64,000 nt of DNA, from NCBI GenBank assembly GCA_039000515.1, contig JBCFYV010000100.1, positions 54,993,433-55,057,432 of the forward strand. Direction: 5' to 3'. Below the pieces are notes generated by a model. The model did no database searches. It was not told the DNA's origin and saw only the letters and a program-made list of their open reading frames with translations. Shown here piece by piece: positions 20,098 through 42,300 of this stretch (its first letter is position 1; every line of letters begins with the position of its first letter). The translations under genes and the position numbers were made by a program. The DNA is from Timema cristinae. Taxonomy: Eukaryota; Arthropoda; Insecta; Phasmatodea; Timematidae.

Positions 20098-23028
20098 ATG
20101 TCCCATTTGACCTCACGAGCCGCCATTAGACAGGGTCTACTTGTGTGGCTACTTGTGGCCTTGTGTTGTGCCATCCCGCACTGCCGCATGTTCAGCACAT
20201 ACCAGGTGAGTCACAACCACACGTCGACAACATTGATGGAGTGGAAATATACCATCCTGTGTGAGTCTACCACTTGTATAAAGATACCACTCTGTACAAG
20301 TTCCCACTCTGTATAAGCTACCTATACAAGTTCCCACTCTGTATAAGCTACCTGTACAAGTTCCACATCTGTATAAGCTACCTGTACAAGTTACTACTCT
20401 GTATAAGCTACCTGTACAAGTTCCCACTCTGTATAAGCTACCTGTACAAGTTACTACTCTGTATAAGCTACCTGTACAAGTTCCCACTCTGTATAAGCTA
20501 CCTGTACAAGTTCCCACTCTGTATAAGCTACCTGTACAAGTTCCCACTCTGTATAAGCTACCTGTACAAGTTCTCACTCTGTATAAGCTACCTGTACAAG
20601 TTCCCACTCTGTATAAGCTACCTGTACAAGTTCCCACTCTGTATAAGCTACCTGTACAAGTTCCCACGCTGTATAAGCTACCTGTACAAGTTCCCACTCT
20701 GTATAAGCTACCTATACAAGTTACTACTCTGTATAAGCTACCTGTACAAGTTCCCACTCTGTATAAGCTACCTGTACAAGTTCTCACTCTGTATAAGCTA
20801 CCTGTACAAGTTCCCACTCTGTATAAGCTACCTGTACAAGTTCCCACTCTGTATAAGCTACCTGTACAAGTTCCCACTCTGTATAAGCTACCTGTACAAG
20901 TTCTCACTCTGTATAAGCTACCTGTACAAGTTCCCACTCTGTATAAGCTACCTGTACAAGTTCCCACTCTGTATAAGCTACCTGTACAAGTTCCCACTCT
21001 GTATAAGCTACCTGTACAAGTTCCCACTCTGTATAAGCTACCTGTACAAGTTCCCACTCTGTATAACCTACCTGTACAAGTTACTACTCTGTATAAGCTA
21101 CCTGTACAAGTTCCCACTCTGTATAAGCTACCTGTACAAGTTCCCACTCTGTATAAGCTACCTGTACAAGTTCCCACTCTGTATAAGCCACCTATACAAG
21201 TTCCCACTCTGTATAAGCTACCTGTACAAGTTCCCACTCTGTATAAGCTACCTGTACAAGTTCCCACTCTGTATAAGCTACCTGTACAAGTTCCCACTCT
21301 GTATAAGCTACCTGTACAAGTTCCCACTCTGTATAAGCCACCTATACAAGTTCCCACTCTGTATAAGCTACCTGTACAAGTTCCCACTCTGTATAAGCTA
21401 CCTGTACAAGTTCCCACTCTGTATAAGCTACCTGTACAAGTTCCCACTCTGTATAAGCTACCTGTACAAGTTCTCACTCTGTATAAGCTACCTGTACAAG
21501 TTCCCACTCTGTATAAGCTACCTGTACAAGTTCCCACTCTGTATAAGCCACCTGTACAAGTTCCCACTCTGTATAAGCTACCTGTACAAGTTCCCACTCT
21601 GTATAAGCCACCTATACAAGTTCCCACTCTGTATAAGCTACCTGTACAAGTTCCCACTCTGTATAAGCTACCTGTACAAGTTCCCACTCTGTATAAGCTA
21701 CCTGTACAAGTTACCACTCTGTGATAAGTTACCTATACAATTTACCACTCTGTATAAGCTACCTGTACAAGTTCCCACTCTGTATAAGCTACCTGTACAA
21801 GTTACTACTCTGTGGTAAGCTACCTATACAAGTTCCCACTCTGTATAAGCTACCTGTACAAGTTACTACTCTGTATAAGCTACCTGTACAAGTTACTACT
21901 CTGTGGTAAGCTACCTATACAAGTTCCCACTCTGTATAAGCTACCTGTACAAGTTCCCACTCTGTATAAGCTACCTGTACAAGTTACTACTCTGTGGTAA
22001 GCTACCTATACAAGTTCCCACTCTGTATAAGCTACCTATACAAGTTCCCACTCTGTATAAGCTACCTGTACAAGTTACTACTCTGTGGTAAGCTACCTGT
22101 ACAAGTTCCCACTCTGTATAAGCTACCTGTACAAGTTCCCACTCTGTATAACCTACCTGTACAAGTTACTACTCTGTATAAGCTACCTGTACAAGTTCCC
22201 ACTCTGTATAAGCTACCTGTACAAGTTACTACTCTGTGGTAAGCTACCTGTACAAGTTCCCACTCTGTATAAGCTACCTGTACAAGTTACTACTCTGTAT
22301 AAGCTACCTGTACAAGTTCCCACTCTGTATAAGCTACCTGTACAAGTTACTACTCTGTATAAGCTACCTGTACAAGTTCCCACTCTGTATAAGCTACCTG
22401 TACAAGTTCCCACTCTGTATAAGCTACCTGTACAAGTTCCCACTCTGTATAAGCTACCTGTACAAGTTATCACTCTGTATAAGCTACATGTAAAAGTCCC
22501 CACGCTGTATAAGCTACATGTACAAGTTATCACTCTGTATAAGCTACCTGTAAAAGTTCCCACTCTGTATAAGCTACCTGTACAAGTTCCCACGCTGTAT
22601 AAGCTACCTGTACAAATCACCTGTGTATAAACCAATGTTGAACGTTGTTTTTACTAGGAGCACGAGATTGAAACTCCTCTACCAGTGTTGCTGATGAACC
22701 TGGCTATCCACTGCAAAGTCCCAAAAGAACATACGTGGGGTGAGAAATAGTATTTTTGGATGTGTCAGAGAGAGTCAACTACACTCCAATATTCATAGAA
22801 ATGGCCTTTTAGAAAGAAAAACAAGTGTTGTTTGACATTAGCAGGTCACATGACTTATGAATACGTGAAAGTAGATCTAGCGACTCTTATAGCTAACAGA
22901 AAAGAAAGATTATTCCTATGATAATTCATCTCAAGCCAAGCACTAAACTGAGTACTTTACAAAGCTAGAAACATTTGATTAATTGATAGATTTAAGTATA
23001 AGTTCAGAGAGTTATAGAAATTATTTAC

Positions 23029-23076
<48 letters not shown>

Positions 23077-26000
23077 CGCTTTCTCTTAGTACCAGTTAAG
23101 GTTTAACGTATAGGTGCTGGTTAAGCTATTGTTATAGTTACGAGAAAAGTGCAATTGAAAGGAAATGTACCCGCATTTATGTGGCGATAGAAATAGATAA
23201 AAATTCTCAACAACTGTTGATATCAACGTGTGAAGAAATTTAAACTCTTTTTATCTTTACTGGAGAATTATTTTATTTATTTCGACTAATAATGTTTAGC
23301 TATTAAAAAAACAAACTGTATAAACACTGTCCTTATCTCACGTCCCTTACATCCCACCTTAACGTCCCACTCGTTCGGTTCGTCAGTGAAATTATCAGGA
23401 TTCAAACTGCTCTAAGTTGTACTGGAGGTGATTTCTTACCAAACGGTTTCTCCCTTATCTCGCCACGCAAGTAAAGATACATTTCCTCTAAATCCTACCT
23501 TACCTCACAAGTGTAATTAAATACTGACAGACCGGACGGGTAGTAAGATTCAGCTTGTAGGCTATCAATCGGTTGTTATGTTCTCAATAAGACAAATGAA
23601 TGTTACGGTTCACACCTTATCACATCTTTACCTATTGGAGATAATATTTACTTCAATCTCGTAGGATGTTTGTAGGGGAAACATATTTTGTAACACCGAA
23701 AATTTCGGAAATTGCTTTTTTTCCATATATACAGGGTAAGGGTAAGAAGGTGTCGGACTTCTGTGCTGGGGGTCTGGGGTTCAATCCTCGGTCCCGGCAC
23801 AGATTTATCTGATTACCAAACCCTTCCTTCAGCTCTGACAACACATCTTGTTAATGTGGGGAATGCCAGGCCTCCACCGTGGTTCGGATTCCACGTTAAA
23901 CTGTAGGTCCTCCATTTCATCTCACAATCACCCTAACATTACACATTAGCGTAAGTGCGTATAACCCGAACGGGTAGTAAGACGTGCTAATAATAATAAT
24001 TATCAAAATTAGAAATGTCTGCTTATGTAAAGTACCCTCAAATTCATTTTAATATAAAAATGAAAACTGCCATTTTGTTTATAATGTTAAATGTTAAAGT
24101 CTAGATAAGAAAAATTATCAAAATCATTAAAACTGTATCTAAAAAAAAATTATTTTTTTCTTTTTCTTTTTGCTCTTTAGTAAACTACCCTTAATTTTAG
24201 AGTTGTAGAGCTTGTGCCAAAAAAAAACCTAAGGAGAATCTTATGAAAACCCTATATATCAAGTATCAGCCCGGTCGAATACTCCCCCCGAACCCCCCCC
24301 CCCCCCCTCTCTCTCTCTTTCTTAGGGATTGCAAAATAGTAAAAGTGGTGTAAAACCCCTCAAAACGGTATGAAAACACTGACTTCGATCTTTCGAACAC
24401 TCCAAGTGGGTAATTCTCACGGTTTTTAATCTTATATAACTAGCTTTATGATCCCCTGAGGCTAATTTCTAAAATGTTGGTTCTGTTCCAGAGTCGTTCC
24501 GCGAGGTAGTCGGCTCCCTTCTGCTAAGAAGACAACTTGGACCAGATTTCAACAAGGTACTTGAAGTTCACAGTTTGATTCCGGTAGGGAAGGAATTCGG
24601 AATAACATCTTAAGGTGGGGATTTAGAGAACGCGAGAAAAGGTAACTGTTTTTTTAATAGTTTTTATATCCGGTAAAAACCAAGAGTTAAATTTCCTTCA
24701 CACGGTGATACAACAGTTGTTGAATATCTGTCAGGGCTGTCCTGGAATTTAATGACTAGTTTATCATCTAATGCCGATATGCTCATGACAGATAATCAAC
24801 AATTGTTGATAACACCACAGGGAGAAAATTAAACTCTGGGTTTTTACTGGAGAGATATTTGATTAATTTGACCATAAATATATTTTTATATAAAAACTAT
24901 AAAAAATACTGAACTTTTCTCGCGTTCCCTGCATCCCCAGCTTGATATTAATTAACGACCCGCTTCGGTGGCCACACGGTCAAAGGCGTCACTCTCGCAA
25001 GAGACTATAGACTGCCAAAGACGGGGAGATTGTGGTTCGATCCCAGTCGGTGTACTGAGGGTGTTGTTTTTTCTTTCTTAAATGGTTTTACACTCTCTCT
25101 TCACATAAATGCGGGTACACTTTATCCTAATTCAACTGTTCTGATCCATACCCCATTAGAATAGTTATCCTATATGCTATAACCTGAACAGGTAGTAAGA
25201 CGCGGTGATAAAAAAATTAACGAAACGATTCAGATTATTTTAATAATGGTCTATTTATTTCAAAGTATTAACTTCAAGTCGTAAACATTTTAATGACAAT
25301 TTTTTTTCTTTTTTTTTTTTTTTACACTAACGATTTTATTGGGCCCGTCCACCGAAGTTACGAAGATTTTAATGGTTACAAATTTACTAGTTATGCTTTC
25401 ACGTATTCATACGTCAAGCCATGTGATCTGCAGCTGTCACTTTTGATAGCTACTATCAATACAAATAAAATAACACTAATGATATCATAAAATGTTAACA
25501 ATGTTGAAGTCGGTGACCTGGTGGTCTAGGGGTAAGGTGTCAGACTTCTATGCTGGCGACCGGGGTTCAATCCTCGGTCCCGGCACAGATTTATCTGATT
25601 TCCAAACCCTTCCTTCACCTCTGACAAGTTATCTTGTGAATGTGGGGAATGCCAGGCCTCCACCGTGGTTCGGATTCCACGTTAAACTGTAGGTCTTTCA
25701 TTTCATCTCATAATCACCCTACCATTACACATTAGCGTAAGAGCGTATAACCCGAACGGGTAGTAAGACGCGGTGCTAATAATAATAATAATAATAATAA
25801 TAACAATATTGAACACAATAAAATATCTTTGATTTTTATAAAAGTTCTTTCATACCACAATCCTATTTGTAATACAAATTAATTTAATTTGACATATAAT
25901 CATTTGACACACGTGTATCTTCCAAATGATACATGCAGGCCTACATCCCCCATTTGACGCATATGGATCTTACAAATTATGCATGCAAGTCTATATCCCC

Positions 26001-27520
26001 CATTTGACGCATGGGAATCTTCCAAACGATGCATTCAGGCCTATATCCCCCATTTGACACACGTGTATCTTCCAAATGATGCATTCAGGCATATATCCCC
26101 CATTTGACGCAGCCTCATTTTCCCCCATTTGACACACGTGTATCTTCCAAATGATGCATGCAGGCCTATATCCCCCATTTGACGCAGCCTCTTCTTCCCC
26201 CATTGACACACGTGTATCTTCCAAATAATGCATGCAGGCCTATATCCCCATTTGACGCAGCCTCATTTTCCCCCATTTGACACACGTGTATCTTCCAAAT
26301 GATGCATGCAGGCCTATATCCCCATTTGACGCAGCCTCTTCTTCCCCCATTGACACACGTGTATCTTCCAAATAATGCATGCAGGCCTATATCCCCCATT
26401 TGACGCAGCCTCATCTTCCCCCATTTGACACACGTGTATCTTCCAAATAATGCATGCAGGCCTATAGCCCCATTTGACGCCGATGCCCTTGTACCCAGTG
26501 CCTGCTGTACTGCATGATGGAGAACATGAAGATGTTCGGTCCAGACAGGACAACCCTCGACCCGGTCAGCTCCGTGCGACACGCGGGGCCCTACCTGGAG
26601 AATTACGACCAGGAGAAGATGGTCACGTGCATCGACCAAGGTACGAGCCGGAGACACACGCTTCTGGTCTGTTAAGATGGGGAGCTCTGACGGGATACGA
26701 ACCACGACCGGGTTTCCACTGTTGCCTTTACGCTACCCAGTTGACATTAGATTTGAGGACAAGTGAAGGAAGCTTTGGCTGATTCTGTTATGTGAGGAAC
26801 AGGTTACTTTCGCATATTTTGTTCCTCTTTACGTGACCATTTAAATACACTAATTTGCACCTATGATTTGTTTTTAGAAAAGTACATTTTGATTGTTACA
26901 TTTTATTCTTGATTAATTATAAAAGTGGATATGTATTATGTATGTTTATCTGTTCCTATGTCTATCTGTTTATCTGTCCCCTTTTTCCTTCTGTCTGTGT
27001 GTCCCTCTTTCCCACTGTTTGTCTCTCCCTCTGTCTGTTTGTCCCTCTTTCCCACTGTTTGTCTCTCCCTCTGTTTGTTTGTACTGTCTTATAACAAACT
27101 ACCACCTAATATAAAAGAAAGTACGTGTGATTTTGTTGTGCCAATAATTCAATTCAATTCGATTTCAGTGAATCTCATGGAGTTTAAGGAAAACGCAAGG
27201 GCTCGATGTGACAAGTCAGCGATATTCTTGACGTGCTTCAACAAGGTGAGTTGTAGGTGACCTAATGGTCTAGGGGTAAGGTGTCAGACTTCTGTGCTGG
27301 TGGCCGGGTTTCAATCCTCGGTCCCGGCACAAATTTATCTGATTTCCAAACCCTTCCTTCACCTCTGACAAGACATCTTGTGAATGTGGGGAATGCCAGG
27401 TCTCCACCGTGGTTCGGATTCCACGTTAAACTGTAGGTCCTTTATTTCATCTCACAATCACCCTACCATTACACATTAGCGTAAGTGAGTATAACCCGAA
27501 CGGGTAGTAAGACGCGGTGC

Positions 27521-27583
<63 letters not shown>

Positions 27584-27924
27584 GGTGAGTTGATTATTGA
27601 ATCATTCTAGCAGTAGGATTAATAACTGAATAAATCGAAGAAAAAATAAAATGACTTCTGGAAACGGTAATCGAACTTGGGACCTTTTAGTATAGCGCGC
27701 CAATGTTCGAGCCACTGAGCTATCCAGGAATCGTCCCATTCTCAGAGTCTTTCTTCACTCACAGTTTTAAGGCAGAGTCTGTAATGGACGTGTGAATAGC
27801 ATCTGTTACTAAGAGCTATCATCGATATCACGGCCCCCGGTGACTTGGCTGTGGCTTTATACTGCCAATAATACAAATACATTGTACGTTACAAGCTAAT
27901 AAAGATAAAAGAAAGACACACCAC

Positions 27925-27964
<40 letters not shown>

Positions 27965-30900
27965 GGGTACTATCCGTAATCATAATCACCCAAAGCTTCG
28001 CCTTTCATGTAAGGCTTAAGAGCCCGTCTCACCCCACAGATAACACTTAACTTAGGTAGGTAATACAGCTAGAACCAGACGTCTTAAGAGCCCGTCTCAC
28101 CCCACAGATAGCACCTAACTTAGGTAGGTAATACAGCTCGAACCAGACGTCTTAAGAGCCCGTCTCACCCCACAGATAACACCTAACTTAGGTAATACAG
28201 CTAGAACCAGACGTCTTAAGAGCCCGTCTCACCCCACAGATAACACCTAACTTAGGTAGGTATTACAGCTAGAACCAGACGTCTTAAGAGCCCGTCTCAC
28301 CCCACAGATAACACCTAACTTAGGTAATACAGCTAGAACCAGACGTCTTAAGAGCCCGTCTCACCCCACAGATAACACCTAACTTAGGTAGGTATTACAG
28401 CTAGAACCAGACGTCTTAAGAGCCCATCTCACCCCACAGATAACACCTAACTTAGGTAATACAGCTAGAACCAGACGTCTTAAGAGCCCGTCTCACCCCA
28501 CAGATAACACCTAACTTAGGTAATACAGCTAGAACCAGATGTCATAAGAGCCCGTCTCACCCCACATATAACACCTAACTTAGGTAGGTAATACATCTAG
28601 AATCAGACGTCTTAAGAGCCCGTCTCACTCCCCAGATAACACCTAACTTAGGTAGGTAATACAGCTAGAACCAAACGTCCTAAGAGCCCGTCTCACCTCA
28701 CAGATAACACCTAACTTAGGTAGGTAATACAGCTAGAACCAGACATCTTAAGAGCCCGTCTCACCCCACAGATAACACCTAACTTAGGTAGGTAATACAG
28801 CTAGAACCAGACGTCTTAAGAGCCCGTCTCACCCCACAGATAACACCTAACTTAGGTAGGTATTACAGCTAGAACCAGACGTCTTAAGAGCCCGTCTCAC
28901 CCCACAGATAACACCTAACTTAGGTAATACAGCTAGAACCAGACGTCTTAAGACCCCCTCTCACCCCACAGAAAACACCTAACTTAGCTAGGTAATACAG
29001 CTAGAACCAGACGTCTTAAGAGCCCGTCTCACCCCACAGATAACACCTAACTTAGGTAGGTAATACAGCTAGAACCAGACGTCTTAAGAGTCCGTCTCAC
29101 CCCACAGATAACACCTAACTTAGGTAGATAATACAGCTAGAACCAGACGTCTTAAGAGCCCTTCTCACCCCACAGAAAACACCTAACTTAGCTAGGTAAT
29201 ACAGCTAGAACCAGACGTCTTAAGAGCCCGTCTCACCCCACAGATAACACCTAACTTAGGTAGGTAATACAGCTAGAACCAGACGTCTTAAGAGCCCGTC
29301 TCACCCCACAGATAACACCTAACTTAGGTAGATAATACAGCTAGAACCAGACGTCTTAAGAGCCCGTCTCACCCCACAGATAACACCTAACTTAGGTAGG
29401 TAATACAGCTAGAACCAGACGTCTTAAGAGCCCGTCTCACCCCACAGATAACACCTAACTTAGGTAGGTAATACAGCTAGAACCAGACGTCTTAAGAGCC
29501 CGTCTCACCCCACAGATAACACCTAACTTAGGTAGATAATACAGCTAAAACCAGACGTCTTAAGAGCCCGTCTCACTCCACAGATAACACCTAACTTAGG
29601 TAGGTAATATAGCTAGAACCAGACGTCTTAAGAGCCCGTCTCACCCCACAGATAACACCTAACTTAGGTAGGTAATACAGCTAGAACCAGACGTCTTAAG
29701 AGCTCATCTCACCACACAGATAACACCTAACTTAGGTAGGTAATACAGCTAGAACCAGACGTCTTAAGAGCTCGTCTCACCACACAGATAACACCTAACT
29801 TAGATAGGTAATACAGCTAGAACCAGACGTCTTAAGAGCTCGTCTCACCACACAGATAACACCTAACTTAGGTAGGTAATACAGCTAGAACCAGACGTCT
29901 TAAGAGCTCGTCTCACCACACAGATAAACCTAACTTAGGTAGGTAATACAGCTAGAACCAGACGTCTTAAGAGCTCGTCTCACCACACAGATAACACCTA
30001 ACTTAGGTAGGTAATGCAGCTAGAACCAGACGTCTTAAGAGCCCGTCTCACCCCACAGATAACACCTCACTTAGGTAGGTAATACAGCTAGAACCAAACG
30101 TCTTAAGAGCTTGTCTCAACCAGAACAGATATTTTAGAACTGTTGGTATTACTATGTGTAGAAAATTAAACTAAACTCATCTACAGAATCACGATTTTAT
30201 TCGTTCTAGCCAAAAAGTTTTTTTTTTTACCAAGGGTGCAAATTCTGGCTCCTTTCCATTCGAATGAATGCCACAATGAGGATAATTCTTAAATCGTTCT
30301 GAGTATTGAATCGATAGATGTTTCAACTGAATGGCTGTCAGGTGACTTTGTTTGGTTTGTTGTTCCTCCAGGGAATCTTTAGATTGTCCTGGGAGCATCT
30401 ACTCGTGGAAGCTGCAGAAAGGTGTAAGAAGAAACTGGGAATACAATCCTGTAAGACTGAAACTCTCGCATAGAAACCAAAATATTAATAGTATCTAGTC
30501 TGTATATTTCACTTTCGACTGATAGTAATTATAGCTTCTCCCAACTGGACGCTAACTAGTTCTGAGATCACGATCAACTTTACGTTCACATTTTTTTTTT
30601 TATTATAATGCACGATGCACTGAACTTAATGTTGACGTGAAGTTCACTCTATGTAAGATCTGTCAAAAGGGGAAATTTCGTACGCCTTCAATCGAAGTGT
30701 ACCATTTGTCCAACCGATCATGTTGTGAACAGTGTCATCACGGTTATTTTAGTACATCACTTGTTTGCTTATGGTGTTCAGACGCCATTTTCGATTCAGC
30801 TCGTTTGTGAACTTTAAAATTTGATACAGCCGTTCGCCGAAAATAGAAAGCATAATCTGCCAAAGCAGCTCAGCAACTCAGACGATGCATTGCAACGCTA

Positions 30901-33812
30901 ACTTTCAACTAACTATCAACACATTTTATTTTCTAGTGGATAGACATTTATTTTAGATCATTCTCCTGATGGTTGTTTTCAAATTATAGCGCTCTGTCGT
31001 GGATTAATCCAATACATCGATACAAGCTTTACATCAATCGGTTATTTAAAATTGCCTCACAACGTCCAACGAAGCTGTCTGCTTGCTTCTAGCTCTACAG
31101 CGCATGCGTTGTCAAATGCATATACGCACTGATTTGAGATAGTTGGTTCTGAGATTTGATTAGCTCTCCCGTGCCGAACATCTCAGGCACAGCGGATTAA
31201 GTAGAAATGAGTTGAACTTAAGGTGGAGTGCTAGTGAGCGTGAGTTTAGGCCAGTATTTTTGCAGTTTTATAGCACAAACACATTTTGGCCAAAATATAT
31301 CAAATGTTTCTTCTTTAGAATCATAGAGTTTAGTTTTCTGCACATGCTAATCTCAACAGTTGTTGAATATCTGTCTTGAGCATAGCAGCATTTGGTGACA
31401 AACTTTTCTCTTTATTTAAATGTTTGTCACCAAATGCCGCCATGCTCATGACAGATATTCAACAACTGTTGATATTAGCATGTGCAGAAAACTAAACTCT
31501 ATGATTCTATAGAAGAAATATTTGATTTATTTTGGCCAAAAAATGTTTGTGATATAGAAACTGCAGAATTAATACACTAAACTCGCGCTCACTAGCACTC
31601 TACCTTAAGCGTAACATCTCGCGTCGATGAGGCGGGAATCTTGTGATTGGCTAAGAGCTCGTCACGTGACTACGTTTTTCTGCGAACGTGTGAATCCACA
31701 GTAAAACGTCGAGTCCTCTTGTTACACTTTATTTGGTATCTCCAGTGAAGCTTCTATTGCATTGTCTTGAAACCTCATCAGTCATAACTGCTTGAGTTGA
31801 ATTTCAGTGACAATTTTGGTCTTTTAAACAGTTCCAATTAATTGTCTGTGTTGTGCTATAGTTGTTACTATAAGTGAATCCTGATCAAACATTTAAGTTT
31901 CTTGAAAATTAATGTTAAGTTGATCATAATCCTGGCATAAGGTGAACCTTATTCAATGTTGGCTACTATTTAACATAATTACAGTGGCGGCTCGTAGCTA
32001 AAATTTGTGGGGGTGCTGCTACAGAAAATGTCTAGCCTTTGTTTTAAAATTGTGTAAAAGGGAAAAAAAATGTATAAAAATAAAATTTATTCAGGAACTT
32101 GATAAAATCTTAACAAAAAAGACGTTTTTACTTACTTTAACTTAAATTGTTAAGGTTCAAGCTTGACTATTAATTTAAAAATGAAATCCATTCTTCTTGT
32201 TTTAATTTTCGCAAAAAGTTAAATAATTTTCTCCTTGATATCTGGATGACAATTGAGGAAATTTTTCTCCATTGAAAGTACTGCAAGTGCATTTAGTCTT
32301 TCTGTTAAGTAAACGAACCGGAAAAAAAAAAATGAATCAAATAGAATAGCTGAAAGCGAAATAATAATCTAATTCTACACTCTTCTACACTTTATCACAT
32401 TCAAGAATATGGTACACGGTTTTTAAGCACAACACACGCTGAGTAAAAAAAAAAACTTCCACCATCACGGTCAGAGCCGGCACTGTGAGAGCAACAGTGC
32501 TCTCTCTACCTGGCAGTCCCACCTTCCTCCCCACCCCCTCCTCTGTGCGCATGCGCACAACAGTCAAACACAACGTCGCTGGCACTGTGAAGCGCACAGT
32601 TCCATACAAAGATTTTTGTATATTTTTCATAAACTGGGAAATGGCTACAGAAGTACTAACATTAAGCTTAAGGAATATATATTGTACTACAAAAATAATC
32701 AAAAATAATTAAAGAAAAAAGGACTCATTATATTAAATGTTATCGATAATATCAAGTGTAAATAGGGGGTGCTGCAGTTCCGCAGTGCCTATACACGAGC
32801 CACCACTGCATAATTATATTTATACTATTTGAAATATTATCATATCCACTAGTGAGATGTACGTGTATTTCACTAGCTTCTAAGAAGATCTAAGTCCCGT
32901 CTACAGAAAACTTAAGTTCTGCATCCGTTTGGTCCGTAAATTCTTAAACGTCCTTCGAACCGGAAATCGCTTTTACACAGTCCGTACCTTTAATCACGTG
33001 ACCGTGCCAACCAATGTGATAGTTGTGGACTACGTCCAATTATTAAACTCTTGGAAGTACAATTATTGTCTAGACTCTAGAGCCAGTGGCAAGCATATGT
33101 GATCTGTGAAGCAGAGGTTATAAAGCATACTAATAGGGGTGACCTGGCGGTCTAGAGGTAAGGTGTCAGACTTCTGTGCTGGAGGTCCGGGGTTCAATCC
33201 TCGGTCCCGGCACAGATTTATTTGATTACCAAACCCTTCCTTCACCTCTGACAAGACATCTTGTGAATGTGGGGAATGCCAGGCCTCTATCGTGGTTCGG
33301 ATCCCACGTTAAACTCTAGGTCCTCCATTTCCTCTCGCAATCACCCTACCATTATACATTAGCGTAAGTGCGTATAACCCAAACGGGTAGTAAGACGCGG
33401 TGCTAATAATAATAATAATAATAATAATAATATTAGAAAGGTTATATTTAGAGGAAGTGTACCAGCATTTTCAAGAAGAAAGACGGAAAGAGATGGCGGG
33501 AAACCATTTTGGAAAAACCACCCTCATTACACTCGATCGTAATTCGAATCTCGATCTCTCCGTCATCGGCGAGTCTAGTCTGCTGTGAGAGTAGCGCCTT
33601 AGACCGTGCGGCCACCGAAGCGGGTGTGGACAAAAGGTGAAGAAAATGTTGAAATCATTCTATCCTACATCTTGTATTGATCTCATTGTTTATTCTTGCG
33701 GCGTATTATTGGGACATTAATTAATGCGGGGGAAGGCGCCAGTCTCTTCATGTTTGGTTTCTCGGTGATGGAGAGAACAATGTTCGAATCTCGAATATCG
33801 CCCAGGTGTACC

Positions 33813-33854
<42 letters not shown>

Positions 33855-36800
33855 TTATATATTTCATTCTTTCTTCACCCACATGCAGGAGTATAAATTT
33901 TATTTCTAAGGGTAGCACGAAGCACGATATAAAAAAAATCAGTTCAAGATAAGTATCATATAAAAATACAAACTATCTATCTCTTTTTAGCGTTGGAGAC
34001 CGGAGTTATCGACAGCTTTGTTCATCGGAAAATACCGGATGAAGTGTTCCCAGAGGTCAGTGCGTCATCTAATCATTCCGTCACCTATTGAACCTAATCT
34101 CGTCTACATAGCCATTTAGTTCATCCGACATTTATTGTACCTACTTTGAATATGTTGGAAGCTTCTGGGTTTAATCTTTTGTATCCCTACGCTAGTAACT
34201 GCAAAATAATACCAGTGTAGAGAATAAATCGTAGAATTGTGTATTTACGATTCTGGGTTCAAACACCGACTAGGTGGGCACTTCATTATACTGTACTCTA
34301 TTAATTGTTCCCAGTTTCCTTTTGGGAAATTCGTGTGCATTATGGATGGATCTTACTAAAATAGGATTAGTTGGGGATGTAGGAAATAGGATACAATTTT
34401 AGTGTTTTTGCAGTTTTTATATTAAAACATTTTTTTGTTTGTTTTGTTTTGAATGATTCAAACATTTCTCTAATAAAAACCAAGTGTAATTTTCTTCACA
34501 TGTTGATATCAACAGTTGTTGAATATCTCCATGAGCATGGTGGTATTAGAAGAGAAACTTTTTAAATGAAGAAGAAACGACACTCTTGAGAGACATTCAA
34601 CAATTTTTGATATATTTTGGCAAAAAAAGCAAACAAGTTTTGCTAAAAAAAAACTTAAAAAGCCTTGCCCTTAATCCAAGTTTCCTACACACCCACCTTA
34701 AACTTTCTAATCCAAGATACCAGGATTGGATATCCCAACTGTTGTAAAAAAGAGAGAATGACGTGTTGTTTACGTCCTCCATCGTGAGAGTCGTCTCGTC
34801 TAATCCTGAACGCGTTGTGGTTCTCCAGTGCCTGCTCCACTGCATGATGAGAGAGCTGGGGATGACCGACAGCCTCAACGAGAGATTGTTGGACAGAGAC
34901 AGAGCTCTGGAGAGGGTGGGGTACTTCTTCGAGGAGGGGGACAAGAGGAAGATGAGGGAGTGTGTTGACCAAGGTCAGTGATAAGAGGACGAAGGAGTGT
35001 GCTGACCACAGCTTACTACCTGCTATTTATTATTATTTAGCACCACGTCTTACTACCCGTTCGGGTTATGCGCTTTAAGTACTAATTACGCTAATGGATT
35101 AGGAATTGGGAAGGTTGAATTAGAGGAAGTGAACCCGCATTTGCGTGGAGGGAGAGTGGAAAACCGTTTAGGGAAAAACCACCCCCAGTTCACCCGACCG
35201 AGATTCGAACCTCAATCTCCCCGTCCTCGGCGGTCAAGCTCAACACGACAAGCGCGTTAGCTAACTACGCCACCGAGGCGGGTTACTACCGGTTCAAGTT
35301 ATAGGTTTATGTACTAACTATGCTAATGTTATTAGGGATTATAAAGGTTATATTTATAGGAAGTGTACCTTATTTTGCGTGGAGGGAGATTGTAAAACTA
35401 TTTTTTTTAACCAACCTCAGTAGTTTCGAACCCCAATCTCCTCATCATTCACAATCCAGTCTACTGCGTGAGTAACGCCTTTGACCATGCGGCCACAAAG
35501 ACGTATGAATATGTGGAACTAGATCTAGTAGTTGTTCCTAGTTGTAAGATAAGGTTCTTCCTATGAAAATCGGACTGTACTACACGTATATTTTGTCGTA
35601 AGATACTTTTTAAGAGCTCAGTCTATCAACCTAAAAGTGTCGTCGACTGTTTTTATCTCTCTCTTTTTTTTTTTTTTTTTTTTTTTTTTCCAGCAAACGC
35701 ATTTGTATTCCACTCCAAGTTTTCACACTGCCAGAGAGCGAAACATTTTCTGACCTGCTTCAACAGGGTAGGTGGCTTTGATATATATAAAAAAAAATAC
35801 AGAAAGAAAAGAATACGACGATAATCATACTCTAAAATAAACTAACAACAGTGTCGTATCGTGGAGTGTTGCCAGGGTAAGCAGAGCTTGCTAAAACTGT
35901 ACCTGTGATGTCTTATCCCCCACTCGGACCCCATTTGACCAGGGGAGCAGAGATTATTAAAAAGATTTTTACATCCATCACTGTTTCCAGCCTTTGGCCA
36001 GTTTTTTTTATTCAAGCCATATATTACTAGGCGTGTCGTAGCTTTATATGTATTACAATACAACTAAAGACTAGGACAGGCACAACATCCAGTCCTCCGG
36101 CCGTTAATTCATCGCTCTGAAAGGGGGAAACCCATATTTAACCAATGATACATTTTCCAGCCGTGCCGGGAATTGAACCCGGGACCCTTAGCTCATTAGA
36201 CAGATACGCTACCGACTGAGTTAAGGTGTGTTTATTGTGGCACAATGGGTAGGGGTACATTTCCTACTTAGAAGACCTTAAATCCCATCTGCCACCTTTA
36301 GTGAAAAATAACCAGGGGTTTCCCCAGTTACGTACTCCCTTATCCACCCCTCCCTGAAGTCATTAACACTAGATGACGTCATCAAAAGGTTACAATCCTG
36401 CTCGTTTGATATTTTGCCTCATATATATATATTTGACATGCCTGCCATAGCTGAACGATGCGAGGTAAGCTACTTCACAAGGTGGATGAAGAGGACATCA
36501 TTGAGTAGAGAAAGTTTCTGTCCCAGTAGATATGTCTCAGCTCTCAACCTCCTTGTCATTAATGTTGTCTAGTGACCTTGAGGTTTTTTCTTTTCAAGGA
36601 CACCACGATGTACACCCTGGAGCTGATGTTGGTAGAGGCTTCCTACGACTGCCAGGGACCTACCAAGGCTGGATTAGGTGAGAGAGAGAGTAGATGAAAG
36701 ATTTCCGTGTCAACTTTTCGCAGTGATGGCTTAGTCTAACGCGCTACCCTCGCAGTGGACTAAACCACTGACGACGGGGAGATTGAGGCTCGAATCTGAA

Positions 36801-38953
36801 TCGGTTGTACTGAGGGGGGAAATTTCCTAAAGGGTTTTCCACTTTCCCTTCACGCAAACGTGGGTGCACTTTCTCTAAATATAACCTTCCTAATCCATAA
36901 GACCATGAACGTAATTAGTACATGAGCGTATAGCCGTAACGGGTAGTAAGACGTGGTGCTTATTTATATATATTGAAGTATTAACATGTTATATTTTATA
37001 TAGTAAGTAGGCTTAAATTGTATTAAAAAAGTTATTAGTATTGTGCTTAGTTTATTGATCGAAATTTGTATTAATTTTTTTTAAATGGTCCTTGTGGCTC
37101 CGGATGCAATTGGAGTTGTGACACTGTTGGGTTGCATCAATCAGGGGTTTTGCCATAAGGGGGCGAAAAAATGTTCAGGGTAGAGGCAGACCTTGTAATT
37201 AAACTGTTCTTTTAAATTTACTAAAACTATAGTATGAGGTTCAAACACGTTCGTTTTTCGATATGCAAATACAATTTTTTTTAAAATAATATTTATAAAT
37301 AATATTAGTAATCATTTCAAACTTATTAAAAATATATTCATGTACAATATCGCAATATCTTCATGAGTATGTTCAGTATTTGTACAACAGCAAGCTATTA
37401 TCTATACTTTAACCGGCATTTTGTAACTTTTAAATTGTTTAATAAAACCCCATAAAAGACGTAAATGAGCTCAATTATAGTTGATTGGGCGTTTTAAAAA
37501 TTGAATATAAATTTTTGTACAACTCACTGGAATACTGTGCCTGCAATCTCGCTTATTGACCTCGTAAAATCTTTTGATCATACACGAACGTACGCAAACC
37601 AACTGCGTAACTTACTAGAGCTGGTTACGTTTCAACTACATTTTGGTTACAGAACAATTTCCTTATTTTTGACTGACGCCGTTGTTTCTTTCAATCAGGT
37701 GAAGCGATCCTGGTCGTGCACTCCATCATCAAGAGAATCAAACCTGGCAAGAAGTTTCCCAACGTTAGTAAACTTAAAACATTTAATTGCATGTCCAATC
37801 AATCTTAGTATGCACAAATACAATAATTTTATTGGTCTTGATCTTCTAACGTATAGCTTAATAAATCTTGGCCCCCACCAAGATTTAATGTTTGTTAATT
37901 TTACAAACACTTCTAATTCCTCTTCACTTCTGTTATTGACGAGGAGCATTTAGCTGTATATAATAGTAACTTAAGCAGTAATAACGAACCGAAATAAGCA
38001 GTCATTTCAAGCAAGTTACTCCGGATTAGTTAATTAAATTAAACAAGTGCAAATGGAAGACGACTATCAAGAATTATATTCTTAATCCTGTCCACATTCT
38101 TGATTTCTTTGAACCTTGTTAACTTGAGGTAGTTTGTTTTACCATGTTTGACGATGTTGTGTTGGCAGTGCCTGCTGTATTGTATGTTCCGTGTCATCGG
38201 TATGATCCCTGACGAGGAGTATCTGTTCAATAACGAGACCAGTCAGGAGTTCGTTGGGTACTTCTATGAGCAACTAGACCGTGGAAAGATGGGCGAGTGC
38301 ATTGCGAAAGGTAACTGTTTTGGGGTTTGAGGGATAGTGAAATGTTTAAATTTGTTTAAATGTGTATAAATATATATTTTGTTTTTTGAAAGTGTGCGCG
38401 ATTGCATATTTCATCATTTATTTCTGAGTAAAATTTGAAAGATTCTGCCAACCAAAGATACAATTTGTATATAAGTATTTAAATAATAACATTTATTAAG
38501 TATTGTAGGCCTATACTAAGTTGACGGGATTACTAGGCCTAAATATATTTTAGGCACGTGGTGCCAGCTGATACATAACTTGCTTTTATAACTAATCTTT
38601 TATAATCTATTTACCTTTTCAGCAAACAGTCTGGAAGAAACTAAGTTTGTCAAGCCCAACTGTGCCAGAGCCAAAAGATTTCTAACGTGCTTCAACACAC
38701 CTCCCATTTATACCCTACAGTTGGAATCGGCGCAGAGCGAGTGAGTCACGAACTACCGTTATTTGAACGTGCTATTTCGATATTAAGATTCTTTCTTCAT
38801 ATATATTGTCATTGAATCTTATTTAAATATTTCCTTCTCTCACACAGTTTCGCGACTATTGAACCAGAGGAAAGTACAACCAACTTCGCAAGATTAGGAT
38901 CAAATACAACAAATAAAGTGGAAGTTCGGAATTACAAACTAAAAATACGATGA
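20098..38953 (+). CDS. Three-domain odorant-binding protein (PBP/GOBP x3), 14 exons
   Basis: Secreted 448-residue protein predicted to bind small hydrophobic ligands; role inferred from the family. Exons: 20098-20205, 22658-22739, 24492-24556, 26499-26640, 27169-27245, 30372-30450, 33991-34055, 34829-34973, 35694-35767, 36599-36677, 37699-37763, 38169-38310, 38623-38740, 38848-38953. All borders are GT-AG and all phases agree with no frame break. Exon 1 supplies a signal peptide ([13 protein letters not shown], residues 13-25). Three domains follow, each with all six cysteines: C55, 86, 90, 129, 146, 155; C176, 207, 211, 251, 267, 276; C297, 328, 332, 371, 388, 397. Spacing is C1-X30-C2-X3-C3-X38/39-C4-X15/16-C5-X8-C6, within the classic OBP pattern. 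CLLYC/CLLHC and LTCFN recur. A polar tail of about 50 residues ends the chain. No second signal peptide and no stop lies between domains, so one polypeptide is the natural reading; three separately transcribed genes cannot be excluded without RNA. Confidence 0.9.
20276..22620. repeat. 30-bp minisatellite, about 78 copies, in OBP intron 1
   Basis: Unit 'gtataagctacctgtacaag' plus 'ttcccactct' (30 bases). Variants are mostly 'ttccc' to 'ttact' or 'ttctc' and 'acctg' to 'accta'. Because 30 is a multiple of three, both strands stay open for more than 500 codons; these frames are artefacts of the array. Between 21721 and 22240 a 31-base variant containing 'gtggtaag' recurs every 91 bases, forming a higher-order repeat. 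The array fills nearly the whole intron. Confidence 0.95.
23030..23073. repeat. (TA)n dinucleotide run
   Basis: About 40 bases of alternating TA in OBP intron 2. Directly after it, 23076-23190 is a minus-oriented fragment of a family 2 SINE. Confidence 0.85.
23195..23362. mobile_element. Half of a family T foldback element
   Basis: Contains the right arm only: 'caacaactgttgatatcaac', 'gaagaaatttaaactctt' and the end 'atcccaccttaa'. The left arm is absent. Confidence 0.6.
23375..23560 (+). repeat. SINE family 2 remnant
   Basis: Body 'cgccacgcaagtaaagatac' and tail 'ggacgggtagtaagattcag' resemble family 2. The tRNA-like head is badly eroded. Confidence 0.5.
23734..24000 (+). repeat. SINE family 1, head slightly truncated
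   Basis: GGTAAGGGTAAGAAGGTGTC replaces the usual start. B box GGGGTTCAATCCTCG, the conserved body and the AAT-repeat tail are intact. Lies in OBP intron 2 in the sense direction. Confidence 0.8.
24288..24320. repeat. C-rich then CT-repeat tract
   Basis: Long cytosine run followed by (CT)n. It lies about 170 bases upstream of OBP exon 3 but is not its immediate polypyrimidine tract. Confidence 0.8.
24610..24947. mobile_element. Family T foldback element
   Basis: Left end TTAAGGTGGGG with 'gaacgcgagaaaagg'. Right arm carries the complement ('cttttctcgcgttccctgca'); the extreme right end is eroded. The centre holds two opposed 'acaacagttgttgaatatct'-like segments. Lies in OBP intron 3, about 50 bases past exon 3. 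Confidence 0.7.
24957..25212 (+). repeat. tRNA-headed SINE (family 2), near-full copy
   Basis: Head CCCGCTTCGGTGGCCACACG, A box-like GGTCAAAGGCG, B box GTGGTTCGATCCCAGTCGG and tail 'aggtagtaagacgcggtgat'. Good reference copy for the plus orientation. Confidence 0.8.
25509..25801 (+). repeat. SINE family 1 with target duplication, OBP intron 3
   Basis: Full head, body and AAT tail. Flanked by AACAATGTTGAA (25497-25508) and AACAATATTGAA (25802-25813), a 12-base target duplication with one mismatch. Sense to the gene. Confidence 0.85.
25905..26481. repeat. Composite ~50/75-bp minisatellite ending at OBP exon 4 acceptor
   Basis: Units of about 50 bases ('ccccatttgacacacgtgta', 'tcttccaaatgatgcatgca', 'ggcctatat') alternate further right with a 25-base insert ('catttgacgcagcctcattt'). 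Each unit carries the palindrome ACACGTGT. The array stops about 17 bases before the exon 4 boundary, so it supplies the branch-point neighbourhood of that intron. Confidence 0.9.
27254..27581 (+). repeat. SINE family 1 inserted at the OBP exon 5 splice donor
   Basis: Head GGTGACCTAATGGTCTAGGG to a long AAT tail. Flanked by the perfect 11-base repeat AAGGTGAGTTG at 27243-27253 and 27582-27592. The left copy is the end of OBP exon 5 plus its 5' splice site, so the insertion duplicated the donor. Confidence 0.9.
27640..27735 (-). repeat. tRNA-like repeat head (family 4)
   Basis: On the minus strand: 'atagctcagtggctcgaaca' (A box) and AAGTTCGATTACCG (B box). A related sequence is at 50880-50975. 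It is not a plausible functional tRNA because the acceptor-stem ends do not pair. Confidence 0.55.
27928..27964. repeat. (AAT)n microsatellite
   Basis: Uninterrupted AAT repeats, possibly the tail of an eroded SINE. Confidence 0.85.
28016..30120. repeat. ~68/64-bp satellite array, about 31 copies, OBP intron 5
   Basis: Unit about 68 bases: 'cttaagagcccgtctcaccc', 'cacagataacacctaactta', 'ggtaggtaatacagctagaa', 'ccagacgt'. A 64-base variant lacks one GTAG. Copies are very similar, with a late block near 29700-30010 changing 'cccgtctcaccccac' to 'ctcgtctcaccacac'. Each unit has a CACCCCACAG and an AG-GTAGGT motif, both splice-site-like. Confidence 0.95.
31218..31608. mobile_element. Family T foldback element, near-palindromic copy
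   Basis: Begins TTAAGGTGGAGTGCTAGTGA and ends with the complement ('tcactagcactctaccttaa'). The inner arms contain opposed 'tgtcaccaaatgc' and 'caacagttgttgaatatctg' segments, so the whole element can fold. TTAA at both ends. Lies in OBP intron 6. Confidence 0.8.
31982..32808 (+). mobile_element. hAT-like non-autonomous element with 8-bp target duplication
   Basis: Terminal inverted repeats CAGTGGCGGCTCGT and, on the complement of the right end, CAGTGGTGGCTCGT. Flanked by a perfect CATAATTA duplication at 31974-31981 and 32809-32816. Eight-base duplication and CAGTGG ends fit the hAT superfamily. No transposase; internal open frames are short. Contains TGCGCATGCGCA near 32546. Lies in OBP intron 6. 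Inverted relative at 14085-14806. Confidence 0.85.
33138..33430 (+). repeat. SINE family 1, OBP intron 6
   Basis: Head GGTGACCTGGCGGTCTAGAG, B box, body and AAT tail present. Followed immediately by a minus-oriented family 2 copy. Confidence 0.82.
33437..33632 (-). repeat. tRNA-headed SINE (family 2), tail missing
   Basis: Minus-strand head CCCGCTTCGGTGGCCGCACG with B-box-like sequence. The shared 3' tail is replaced by the end of the preceding family 1 copy, so the two meet tail to tail. Confidence 0.75.
33810..33855. repeat. (ATT)n microsatellite
   Basis: Uninterrupted ATT repeats in OBP intron 6, about 135 bases before exon 7. Confidence 0.85.
34367..34701. mobile_element. Family T foldback element, left end decayed
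   Basis: Left end TTAGTTGGGGATGTAGGAA; right end 'tttcctacacacccacctta' followed by A. Internal 'tatcaacagttgttgaatat' present. Lies in OBP intron 7. Confidence 0.65.
35036..35283 (-). repeat. tRNA-headed SINE (family 2), near-full copy
   Basis: Minus-strand head CCCGCCTCGGTGGCGTAGTT and B box GAGGTTCGAATCTCGGTCGG; tail complement 'caccacgtcttactacccgt' at the low end. Very similar to 10484-10727. Abuts a second copy. Confidence 0.82.
35285..35508 (-). repeat. tRNA-headed SINE (family 2), older neighbour copy
   Basis: Same orientation and order as the adjoining copy but more diverged. Head complement ends near 35505 ('atgcggccacaaagacg'). Confidence 0.7.
35950..36228 (-). repeat. tRNA-headed SINE (family 3)
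   Basis: Minus-strand head 'cacaccttaactcagtcggt' with B box GGGTTCAATTCCCGG. The body matches 52192-52465 (for example 'cctagtctttagttg' and 'tatggcttgaat' on the minus strand) and ends '...ggctggaaacagtgatgg'. Lies in OBP intron 9. Confidence 0.75.
36599..38740 (+). other. OBP domain 3 module (exons 10-13)
   Basis: Exons of 79, 65, 142 and 118 bases. They carry C1 (SYDCQGP), a linker exon, C2 to C4 (CLLYC, GECIAK) and C5-X8-C6 ([10 protein letters not shown]). The last exon is longer because it continues into the C-terminal tail and ends in phase 2. The linker exon is 65 bases in all three modules. Confidence 0.88.
36720..36962 (+). repeat. tRNA-headed SINE (family 2), OBP intron 10
   Basis: Head 'gtgatggcttagtctaacgc' with B-box-like GAGGCTCGAATCTG; tail 'gggtagtaagacgtggtgct'. 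Begins about 43 bases past exon 10. Confidence 0.75.
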
Positions 38954-39023: not shown

Positions 39024-39037
39024 AATAAAAAAATAAA
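39024..39037 (+). terminator. Polyadenylation signals of the OBP gene
   Basis: Two AATAAA hexamers (39024-39029 and 39032-39037), about 70-85 bases after the stop codon. Confidence 0.7.
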
Positions 39038-39354: not shown

Positions 39355-42300
39355 TCAGGGTTTCCAGTGGACTGTATCCAACAATGTGGAAATGTGTCGC
39401 TCAAGGTCCTGGTCTTTCAACGTGCGTATTGCCTCAATGGTGGGAATATAATTTTCCAACAATTTCTTCCTTCCCTCTGGAGCTTCGGCCATATTGGTCA
39501 AGGTCTGGAAATCAAACAATAGAAACGAACCCTAGAAATTAATAGATAGCTACAATTTTATAAATAATGTTATAATAACTATTAAAAAAATAATTTTTTA
39601 TTACACATATCTGTGTAGGTATTTACTTATATTTAATCAAACGACTGTACTACTTACATTTTATATTTCACAATCAGCTATAAAAATAATGCAAATCATT
39701 GTTTTAATGGTGAATAATTTGTATACAAACTTTGAATTTCTTTAAATACCTTTTTCAAGCGATATATCTCACCTAAACAATTAGTTAGATGCCCTTATAA
39801 ATCAAGAGTAAGGAAACAACATTTGGAAAAAATTAAATTCAGCATCGATATGTACCCTTCGTTTACCCTGTAATAAAACGAGCTTACCTTGCATGGTTTC
39901 ACTACAGTGCAGCTTTTTAGAAAGGGACATAGTGTAGCTCGTCAACATAAACTTGCTACCTTATAGGATAAACGAAGGGTACAGTACATTTCCTTTGTAT
40001 TGATACATAGAAACATGCATCAAAGCCACGTTGATACCCTTATCTATGCTGCTCTTAGCAGTATCTACCGCTGCAATTCTATTGAAATGTTAAAATATCT
40101 AGAACATTAGTATTCAACCATTTTTGATCGCGTATCCCCATGTATAATTTATCTTCAAATTTGTATCCCCAAAGTTGTTGGTCTACAATGTTAGTTATAA
40201 ATATTCTATCATCTACATTTAAAATAAAACCAACGCTTCCAGATCGTATGTTCTAACGTCCGGGTCTTCTATGGCTAATCTTAAATCTGTCCCTGATTGT
40301 TCAGTGTTTATATTGAAATAGTATGTATTTTTAATTTTATGCACCCCAGAAGATGTACTCACGTAGCCCAGGTTGATTAACAATGATCTAGAAAATGCTA
40401 TGGCTTACCTTAACACAGTTGATTTGCAATTCTTTGCAGTTGAAGTCACTTGCCAACTCAAGAAGCCTGTCCATAATATTAACCTTGAGAGCTTCCTTCT
40501 TGCCCATTGTAGTAATGGTGATGAACATGAGCGCTGCGGTAGCCATTGTATGAACCTCCCTGTCCTATTTATTAATAAAATTTACAACCACATAATTACA
40601 ATGCCAAATAATATAATTATTTAACACTACTTCACATTATTGTTAATTTGGGTTACTAGGCTTGGAGTACAAAGTGAAAACTATCTTTAGAGCTACACAT
40701 ACCTCACTAAAAAGTGTCCGTTTCAATCCATGGGTCAAATTGGTTGTCACGGCTATCTTTTTGCCACTAGGATGCATAAGAAGGAGTTGTAGGCAGGAAA
40801 TTGCTCGAGCCACGACATCGGGCCTCTGTCTGTTCATGAGTACCTCCATTAACCCCATGGTTCCCTGATCGATCGCCTCTCCCACAACGTACTCAGTGGT
40901 GAGAAGGTGCTCCAAGATCATTAACTGGATTAGCTTCAAGAAAATAAGGATACTTCTTTCAACCTCGTAGAAGCCTAATACATCACCTCTCCCACAACTA
41001 CTCAGTCGTGAGGTGTTCCAAGATCAACTGGATTAGATTCAAGAAAGCAAGGATACCTCTTTCAACCTCATAGAAGCCTGATACATCACCTCTCCCACAA
41101 CTACCCAGTGGTGAGAAGGTGTTACAAGATCAACTGGATTAGCTTCAAGAAAACAAGGATACCTCGTTCAACCTCATTGAAGCCTGATATATCACGTGTC
41201 CACAAATTCTCGTTGGCGTGGGTATATCCACGGGCGTCGTTAGGATTGACGGGGACACTCACGCCACCCACCCTAATAAAATGCTCAAATAAACAATTAT
41301 TTTTATACAGAAAATTTAAAATCTATAAATTTTGGCCACTATATGCAACAGCTGTGACTAACGAACACATTTATCTCAGCCTCACAGTGTAGCTGTATCA
41401 CATGTACCCTCACGCTTTCACTAATTATTTTATTAAACTATTTGTTTCCATACAAACACCTTGTTAATCCTTATGAAGCTTTATTAATTTTATAGATTAT
41501 ATTAGTTTTAGAGGTCCTGGGTTTAACACCCAACAATTCCAGATTTTTCTGTGAAGCAGTGGATCTGGAATGGGATCCACTAAGCCTCGTGAGAACAGAT
41601 GAATAGCTACTTGAACTAAAAAAACGTAGCAGCTTAAATCTGGAAAACCGAGATTAACGGCCGTAGGGTTTTTTATGCTGACCACATGATACCACCTATA
41701 TATGGTAGTGGGTACTATCTTCGCAAAAAGATGTCGGTCAGTATAGCTCAATTGTGGGCTAACACCATGGAATTATTCCAAATACCGGTTGAACAAGTTG
41801 TGTTCTAGAAGACAGGAAAAGAGAGTGTTTGTGCCATAAGTTTGGATACTCTCTTTGTTCTTCTCGCACAAGGTTCGTAAATACAAAAAAAGAGTAATGA
41901 ATGGTATCGAATACTCACAACAATGTCATCAATCTCGTGCATCATTTTGCTCGCCAAAAGGGGAACAAAATCGCATTATTCAAGATGACGGTTCCTTTAA
42001 AAAAAAATCAAATATATTTAAGAATTTTCACAGAATAAGGTATATGACCATATCAGAGATTTGTGAATGTGTTACTCTTATCTTACAAAATTAAAGTAAA
42101 TTTAATTGAGAGGTAAATTGAAATATATACTTTTATTTTCCTCTAAGAGTCATGTTAACTTTTTTCTTTTACACTTAACGATACATTCAATAAAATATTA
42201 CCTGTAAATAAAATACCTTTCGTTAACCAGAGAGATAGCAAGATTACCGTGTATGGTTTTATTATGGTGAAACCAAGTTGGACACGTCAAGGTAAGGCCC

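Follow-up and report, generated by a model that had tools for sequence, protein, structure and literature searches.

A window of 64,000 nucleotides of Timema cristinae DNA was analysed, in which 14 exons were rebuilt from the DNA on the plus strand at 20098..38953. Exons were located from stop-to-stop frames and the raw sequence, and A2 was found by a constrained scan. The joined exons amount to 1347 nt, which is 448 codons and a stop. All borders of the 14 exons are AG/GT and the phases match at every join, bearing out the single 448-residue frame with exons in phase that the initial annotation had described. The layout is E1 (signal) - A1 B1 C1 D1 - A2 B2 C2 D2 - A3 B3 C3 D3 - E3. The features are given below with the database proteins in which they recur (P0001 and P0004 from T. 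bartmani, P0002 and P0003 from T. podura).

20098..20205, plus strand: exon E1, start codon and signal peptide; ends in phase 0; identical to P0003 over 36 residues
22658..22739, plus strand: exon A1, cysteine C1 of domain 1; phase 0 to 1; in P0003
24492..24556, plus strand: exon B1, 65 nt; phase 1 to 0; in P0003
26499..26640, plus strand: exon C1, cysteines C2, C3 and C4 of domain 1; phase 0 to 1; rank 1 of 417; in P0003 and P0004
27169..27245, plus strand: exon D1, cysteines C5 and C6 of domain 1; ends CFNK in phase 0; rank 1 of 1206; in P0003 and P0004
30318..30371, plus strand: in-frame ATG and hydrophobic stretch directly before A2; a separate start of domain 2, or chance from the pyrimidine tract
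30372..30450, plus strand: exon A2, cysteine C1 of domain 2; supported by Pfam masking; D1-A2 junction in P0004
33991..34055, plus strand: exon B2, 65 nt; supported by Pfam masking; in none of the four relatives
34829..34973, plus strand: exon C2; rank 1 of 415; in P0001 from residue 212 onward
35694..35767, plus strand: exon D2; ends CFNR in phase 0; rank 1 of 1206; in P0001 and P0002
36599..36677, plus strand: exon A3, cysteine C1 of domain 3; D2-A3 junction exact in P0001
37699..37763, plus strand: exon B3, 65 nt; in P0001 and P0002; weak donor, score -1.14
38169..38310, plus strand: exon C3; rank 1 of 416; in Timema relatives
38623..38740, plus strand: exon D3, cysteines C5 and C6 of domain 3; read-through leads to ...AQSE and a TGA at 38741-38743
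38848..38953, plus strand: exon E3, a doubtful tail (exon 14 of the initial annotation); absent from P0001 and P0002

Four exons, A to D, form a module that is present three times, each time with the phases 0-1-0-1-0. The A exons (82, 79 and 79 nt) lead from phase 0 to phase 1, the B exons, 65 nt in all three modules, lead from phase 1 to phase 0, and the C exons start exactly with the codon of cysteine 2 and end in phase 1. D1 and D2 both stop three residues past cysteine 6, in phase 0, where their donors, at the same point of the module, score 8.13 and 4.7; D3 extends beyond this point. These repeated intron positions are the strongest sign of a common module origin for the three domains. 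By a rough home-made score, the donors of B1 (1.15), A2 (CCT/gtaaga, 1.68) and B3 (-1.14) are weak. The introns of the gene measure 107 to 3540 bp. The first contains a tandem array of 77 copies of a 30-bp unit (20292-22615), which gives rise on either strand to long open frames of as many as 527 codons that were taken as meaningless. The intron that separates domains 1 and 2 contains a 68-bp tandem array of 31 copies (28015-30118), and a 74-bp array (26046-26480) ends 18 bases upstream of exon C1. The word CCCATTTGAC of the 74-bp array also occurs around the start codon of E1 and near 35930.

As expected for a PBP/GOBP protein, E1 encodes a signal peptide, called from hydrophobicity only (3.08 over 10 residues) with a cleavage site judged by eye; the E1 donor scores 9.04. 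Residue 29 (20182-20184 in E1) is an extra cysteine lying just past the likely cleavage site, which would leave an odd cysteine count if the protein is secreted. At the other end, the placing of the gene's end in exon 14 fits the frame but is doubtful, as P0001 and P0002 each read on past the donor of exon 13 (D3) and terminate there (...LESAQSE). Because of these two relatives, an end at residue 414 is likelier than one at residue 448, and the protein may stop there. Computed masses are about 49.1 kDa for the 448-residue form, if cleaved after residue 25, and 45.2 kDa for the 414-residue form; single-domain pieces would weigh 14-15 kDa. AATAAA hexamers lie downstream of E3 at 39024 and 39032. 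Further on, at 39355-41023 of the minus strand, there are open frames, three pieces of which had no Pfam match; we take them to resemble a helical-repeat protein of the RSPH14 kind.

The cysteine spacing in domains 1, 2 and 3 is C1-X30-C2-X3-C3-X38/39/38-C4-X16/15/16-C5-X8-C6, the same in the rebuilt frame as first reported from this DNA. All 18 module cysteines are intact, and the C2-X3-C3 and C5-X8-C6 spacings are found in all three modules. When the joined protein was compared with the PF01395 profile, it scored 58.6 bits (cut-off 22; 7.9e-16) over three stretches, in agreement with the three matches that had been predicted. It therefore has both the above-cut-off profile match and the six-cysteine pattern of the PBP/GOBP family. 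Taken singly against the same cut-off of 22 bits, module 1 scored 20.9 bits (just under), module 2 31.9 and module 3 22.4; P0003, which represents domain 1 of T. podura, scored 19.6 bits. A profile built from the three modules matched solved structures of OBP28a (9.2e-5), aphid OBP3 (0.0002) and cockroach PBP (0.08-0.1), and with two rows added these values were 1e-5, 0.0003 and 0.02. A phmmer search of the joined protein against solved structures gave no match. The structure models are weak (mean pLDDT 63.4 and 57.4), those of relatives too much so to show how the domains pack; the one of domain 1 has six helices from residue 45 on. The Timema protein may adopt the odorant-binding fold and bind small hydrophobic ligands.

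To estimate how readily such exons arise by chance, each module was scored against the other two only, over all candidate intervals of the window. All three C exons came first among 415-417 candidates, and so did both testable D exons among 1206, in each case by a wide margin; D3, being longer, lay outside the test. The A exons (ranks 7, 2 and 4 among 1075-1076) and the B exons (ranks 4, 2 and 1 among 315) did not stand out on similarity because they are too short. They are supported instead by position, phase and length, by Timema relatives (A1, B1, A2, A3, B3) and, for A2 and B2, by the Pfam profile, which is independent of the T. cristinae genome. Masking B2 lowered the PF01395 score of domain 2 from 31.9 to 21.8 bits and masking A2 lowered it to 23.7 bits, so that B2 adds 10.1 bits and A2 8.2. 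Three open, phase-compatible 65-nt intervals exist between A2 and C2, and among them only B2 carries a B-like motif. This motif is home-made from the modules themselves; it fits 2 of 38 phase-compatible plus-strand intervals of the window and 0 of 39 on the minus strand, and one of the three B exons fails it. Apart from the exons of the model and overlapping variants of them, no further A to D exon scored above 21 on either strand of the window.

The three-module profile found four database proteins among 142 candidates, all of them from Timema: two fragments each from T. bartmani and T. podura. They are 93-96% identical to the T. cristinae protein over 100-202 residues (152/158 and 157/166 residues for T. 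podura, 188/202 and 93/100 for T. bartmani). Ten of the 13 exon junctions are found in these proteins, both domain-to-domain junctions included. P0003, named partial, covers E1 to D1 and breaks off at the D1 donor with no stop codon. P0004 passes from domain 1 to domain 2 by exactly the T. cristinae junction and then continues past the A2 donor until it meets a stop, and P0001 passes from domain 2 to domain 3, again by exactly the same junction, and reaches the end of D3. P0002 makes the latter passage with 24 extra residues at the D2-A3 junction and also reaches the end of D3; in T. cristinae this piece is not open into A3, and the same words occur in another frame. Of the remaining junctions, B2-C2 occurs in no relative, while A2-B2 (in P0004) and D3-E3 (in P0001 and P0002) are replaced by read-through to a stop. 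Of the three-module gene to be looked for in related insects, both domain joins are seen in T. bartmani and the second also in T. podura, but all three domains were found in none of the four Timema proteins. The continuity A2-B2-C2 is predicted from T. cristinae DNA alone.

Among 3592 candidates of the full-length protein search none reached E 0.01. A PF01395 search across the whole genome gave no match; it gave none in any of 14 control genomes either and the exons are short, so this result is uninformative. When the genome (1.29 Gb, 7605 contigs) was searched with the protein, the best candidates scored comprised 14 rows at the present locus and one weak exon on another contig, C12 (C12:124476435, E 0.54). 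Its flanks led to exons of the same types, all on the same strand:

C12 124474771-124474835, same strand: B exon; E 0.24 in 39 kb with the window modules alone
C12 124476441-124476582, same strand: C exon; score 79
C12 124486930-124487003, same strand: first D exon; E 7e-5 in 39 kb with the window modules alone; score 51
C12 124503815-124503882, same strand: second D exon, 17 kb further on; score 38

The next-best D candidates of C12, on either strand, scored 14 and 18. The second D exon is preceded, near 124501997, by a piece resembling a C exon, with its start and end in different frames, and no A exon was recognised at the locus. When B, C and D of the first C12 module were joined, their PF01395 score was 20.2 bits, slightly below the cut-off. 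As a lead, the C12 locus may be a relative that has two modules in tandem, of which the second is degenerate.

The central claim of the initial annotation was that one gene carries all three domains, with no start or signal peptide between them. In the spliced frame there is indeed neither; the intron directly upstream of A2, however, stays open in frame from the ATG at 30318. The extension encoded there has a 10-residue mean hydrophobicity of 2.04, and extensions this hydrophobic stood before 10 of the 1084 acceptor-like sites examined: 2 among the 220 of the window, one of these being the A2 extension, and 8 among the 864 of a C12 stretch. Under a looser threshold the total was 20 of 1084. 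It is unusual, with a chance rate of about 1 in 100, though a T-rich tract favours such extensions. In the D1-A2 (3126 bp) and D2-A3 (831 bp) introns no signal-peptide-like first exon was found at any of three settings, the loosest of which admits donors as weak as the model's own; E1 passes all three, and the loosest yielded 15 chance candidates in the 45 kb of remaining window. Polyadenylation hexamers number 4 and 2 in the two introns, which is uninformative in AT-rich DNA.

These observations bear on whether the exons belong to one gene or to two or three neighbouring genes, in which domain 2, with domain 3, would start at 30318 and the cross-domain joins in the databases would be prediction artefacts. 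Odorant-binding genes are frequently clustered, the models of the relatives are fragmentary and the ATG with its hydrophobic stretch is of a kind met at only 10 of 1084 sites, all of which would suit separate genes. However, the T-rich acceptor tract reads as Phe, Leu and Val and by itself yields such extensions, no in-frame ATG precedes A3, and neither inter-domain intron has a separate signal exon. Moreover, the D1 and D2 donors (8.13 and 4.7) occupy equivalent positions in their modules, and P0003, a partial entry, stops at the D1 donor without a stop codon. We therefore regard separate genes as improbable. An assembly artefact was rejected: T. bartmani and T. podura proteins carry the same joins, and an accident of assembly is unlikely since relatives hold 10 of the 13 junctions, both domain boundaries among them. 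The phases, the Pfam matches and the joins in T. bartmani and T. podura proteins speak for a single gene with three odorant-binding domains; the joins are seen one boundary per protein, and the claim stands in part. We give a probability of about 0.72 to the reading that one gene encodes a secreted three-domain odorant-binding protein, which arose from a module duplicated twice in tandem behind a single signal-peptide exon.

Other readings concern what becomes of the gene and its product. E1 could be spliced to A1, A2 or A3, so that the gene would act as a set of cassettes giving three-, two- and one-domain carriers. E1, D1 and D2 end and A1, A2 and A3 start in phase 0, so whole-module skips would keep the frame, and the read-through ends in the models of relatives hint at variable 3′ ends; but plain duplication also leaves in-frame modules, and we consider such splicing unlikely. 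Far less credible is a secreted precursor that would be cleaved at the last, basic residue of modules 1 and 2 (CFNK-G, CFNR-D) to release three single-domain carriers. The lysine and arginine do stand exactly at the two boundaries and are kept, K in P0003 and P0004 and R in P0001 and P0002, yet they are single basic residues with no dibasic or furin-type site, and we know of no precedent for such cutting in the odorant-binding family. That the locus is decayed or chimeric and has no function is the least credible reading of all and can be given almost no weight: long repeats lie in its introns and one module of the related C12 locus looks degenerate, but the frame and the 18 module cysteines are intact and relatives keep 93-96% identity over 100-202 residues.

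Under the preferred reading, of one gene with three tandem modules, a four-exon module with phase 0 at both ends would have been duplicated twice in tandem within one gene. The signal exon would lie outside the module and be used once, and new copies would have entered without a new start or stop; they stay in frame because either end of a module is in phase 0. Identity over aligned residues is 42% between domains 2 and 3, 36% between 1 and 2 and 29% between 1 and 3, and domains 2 and 3 look like a later-formed pair. Since Timema proteins differ by 4-7%, the tripling should be much older than these species. Modules 2 and 3 differ at codon positions 1, 2 and 3 by 0.46, 0.32 and 0.61, a pattern as under selection on the protein, and it is weaker for modules 1 and 2 (0.51, 0.43, 0.57) and 1 and 3 (0.51, 0.49, 0.59). 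At both joints, 20 residues separate C6 from the C1 that follows. The first helix of an odorant-binding protein takes up about as many, so there would be hardly any linker between domains. The protein may act as a soluble carrier whose three helical pockets are separate, with the end of each domain running straight into the first helix of the next. Each pocket would be free to diverge in ligand, by analogy with AeD7, a two-domain D7 protein described as having one ligand site per domain (PMC2994686). The linked pockets could bind cooperatively or form a pseudo-trimer, as was suggested earlier.

A more far-reaching reading, which we hold less likely than not, is that the three-pocket protein predates the split of at least two, probably three, Timema species, that skippable phase-0 cassettes let it appear with one, two or three linked pockets, and that together with the C12 exons it would mark a stick-insect class of multi-domain proteins. 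A stable three-domain form could be used to ask whether linked pockets bind separately or together. It would show how in-phase exon modules let a family grow inside one gene. It also carries a warning that annotation can split such genes, as with the two fragments each for T. bartmani and T. podura.

One-domain odorant-binding proteins are the rule and are usually regarded as small, single carriers; forms with two domains have been interpreted as fused dimers. The initial annotation placed two-domain proteins in Diptera, which holds, but they also occur outside it: they are described in flies, in mosquitoes and, as a double-domain subfamily, in the wasp Nasonia (PMC3428353, PMC8067015, PMC2994686). 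No three-domain odorant-binding protein was named in the results of our literature search, a weak negative because the search was incomplete, and the three-domain form may be new relative to the known one- and two-domain proteins. Ten odorant-binding proteins of 135-158 aa are reported from another stick insect, Clitarchus hookeri (PMC4919086). With these and other classic PF01395 PBP/GOBP proteins the Timema protein shares the six cysteines, C2-X3-C3, C5-X8-C6, the signal peptide and the Pfam match; it differs in having three domains and C4-X15/16-C5, against one domain and X8-10 as reported for C. hookeri (PMC4919086). Complete six-cysteine domains in tandem are also described for the dimer OBPs of Diptera (Drosophila Obp83cd and Obp83ef; PMC3428353, PMC8067015), which belong to another insect order and have two domains, not three. 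The double-domain OBPs of Nasonia vitripennis are, like the Timema protein, made of domains of common gene structure, with splice sites in phase 0 or phase 1, and their origin is discussed as fusion or internal duplication (PMC3428353). According to the same source they have two domains, one of which has lost cysteines, whereas all three Timema domains keep six. The long D7 salivary proteins of mosquitoes likewise carry odorant-binding domains in tandem, but they are described with two domains and a role in blood feeding (PMC2994686), whereas the Timema gene has three modules.
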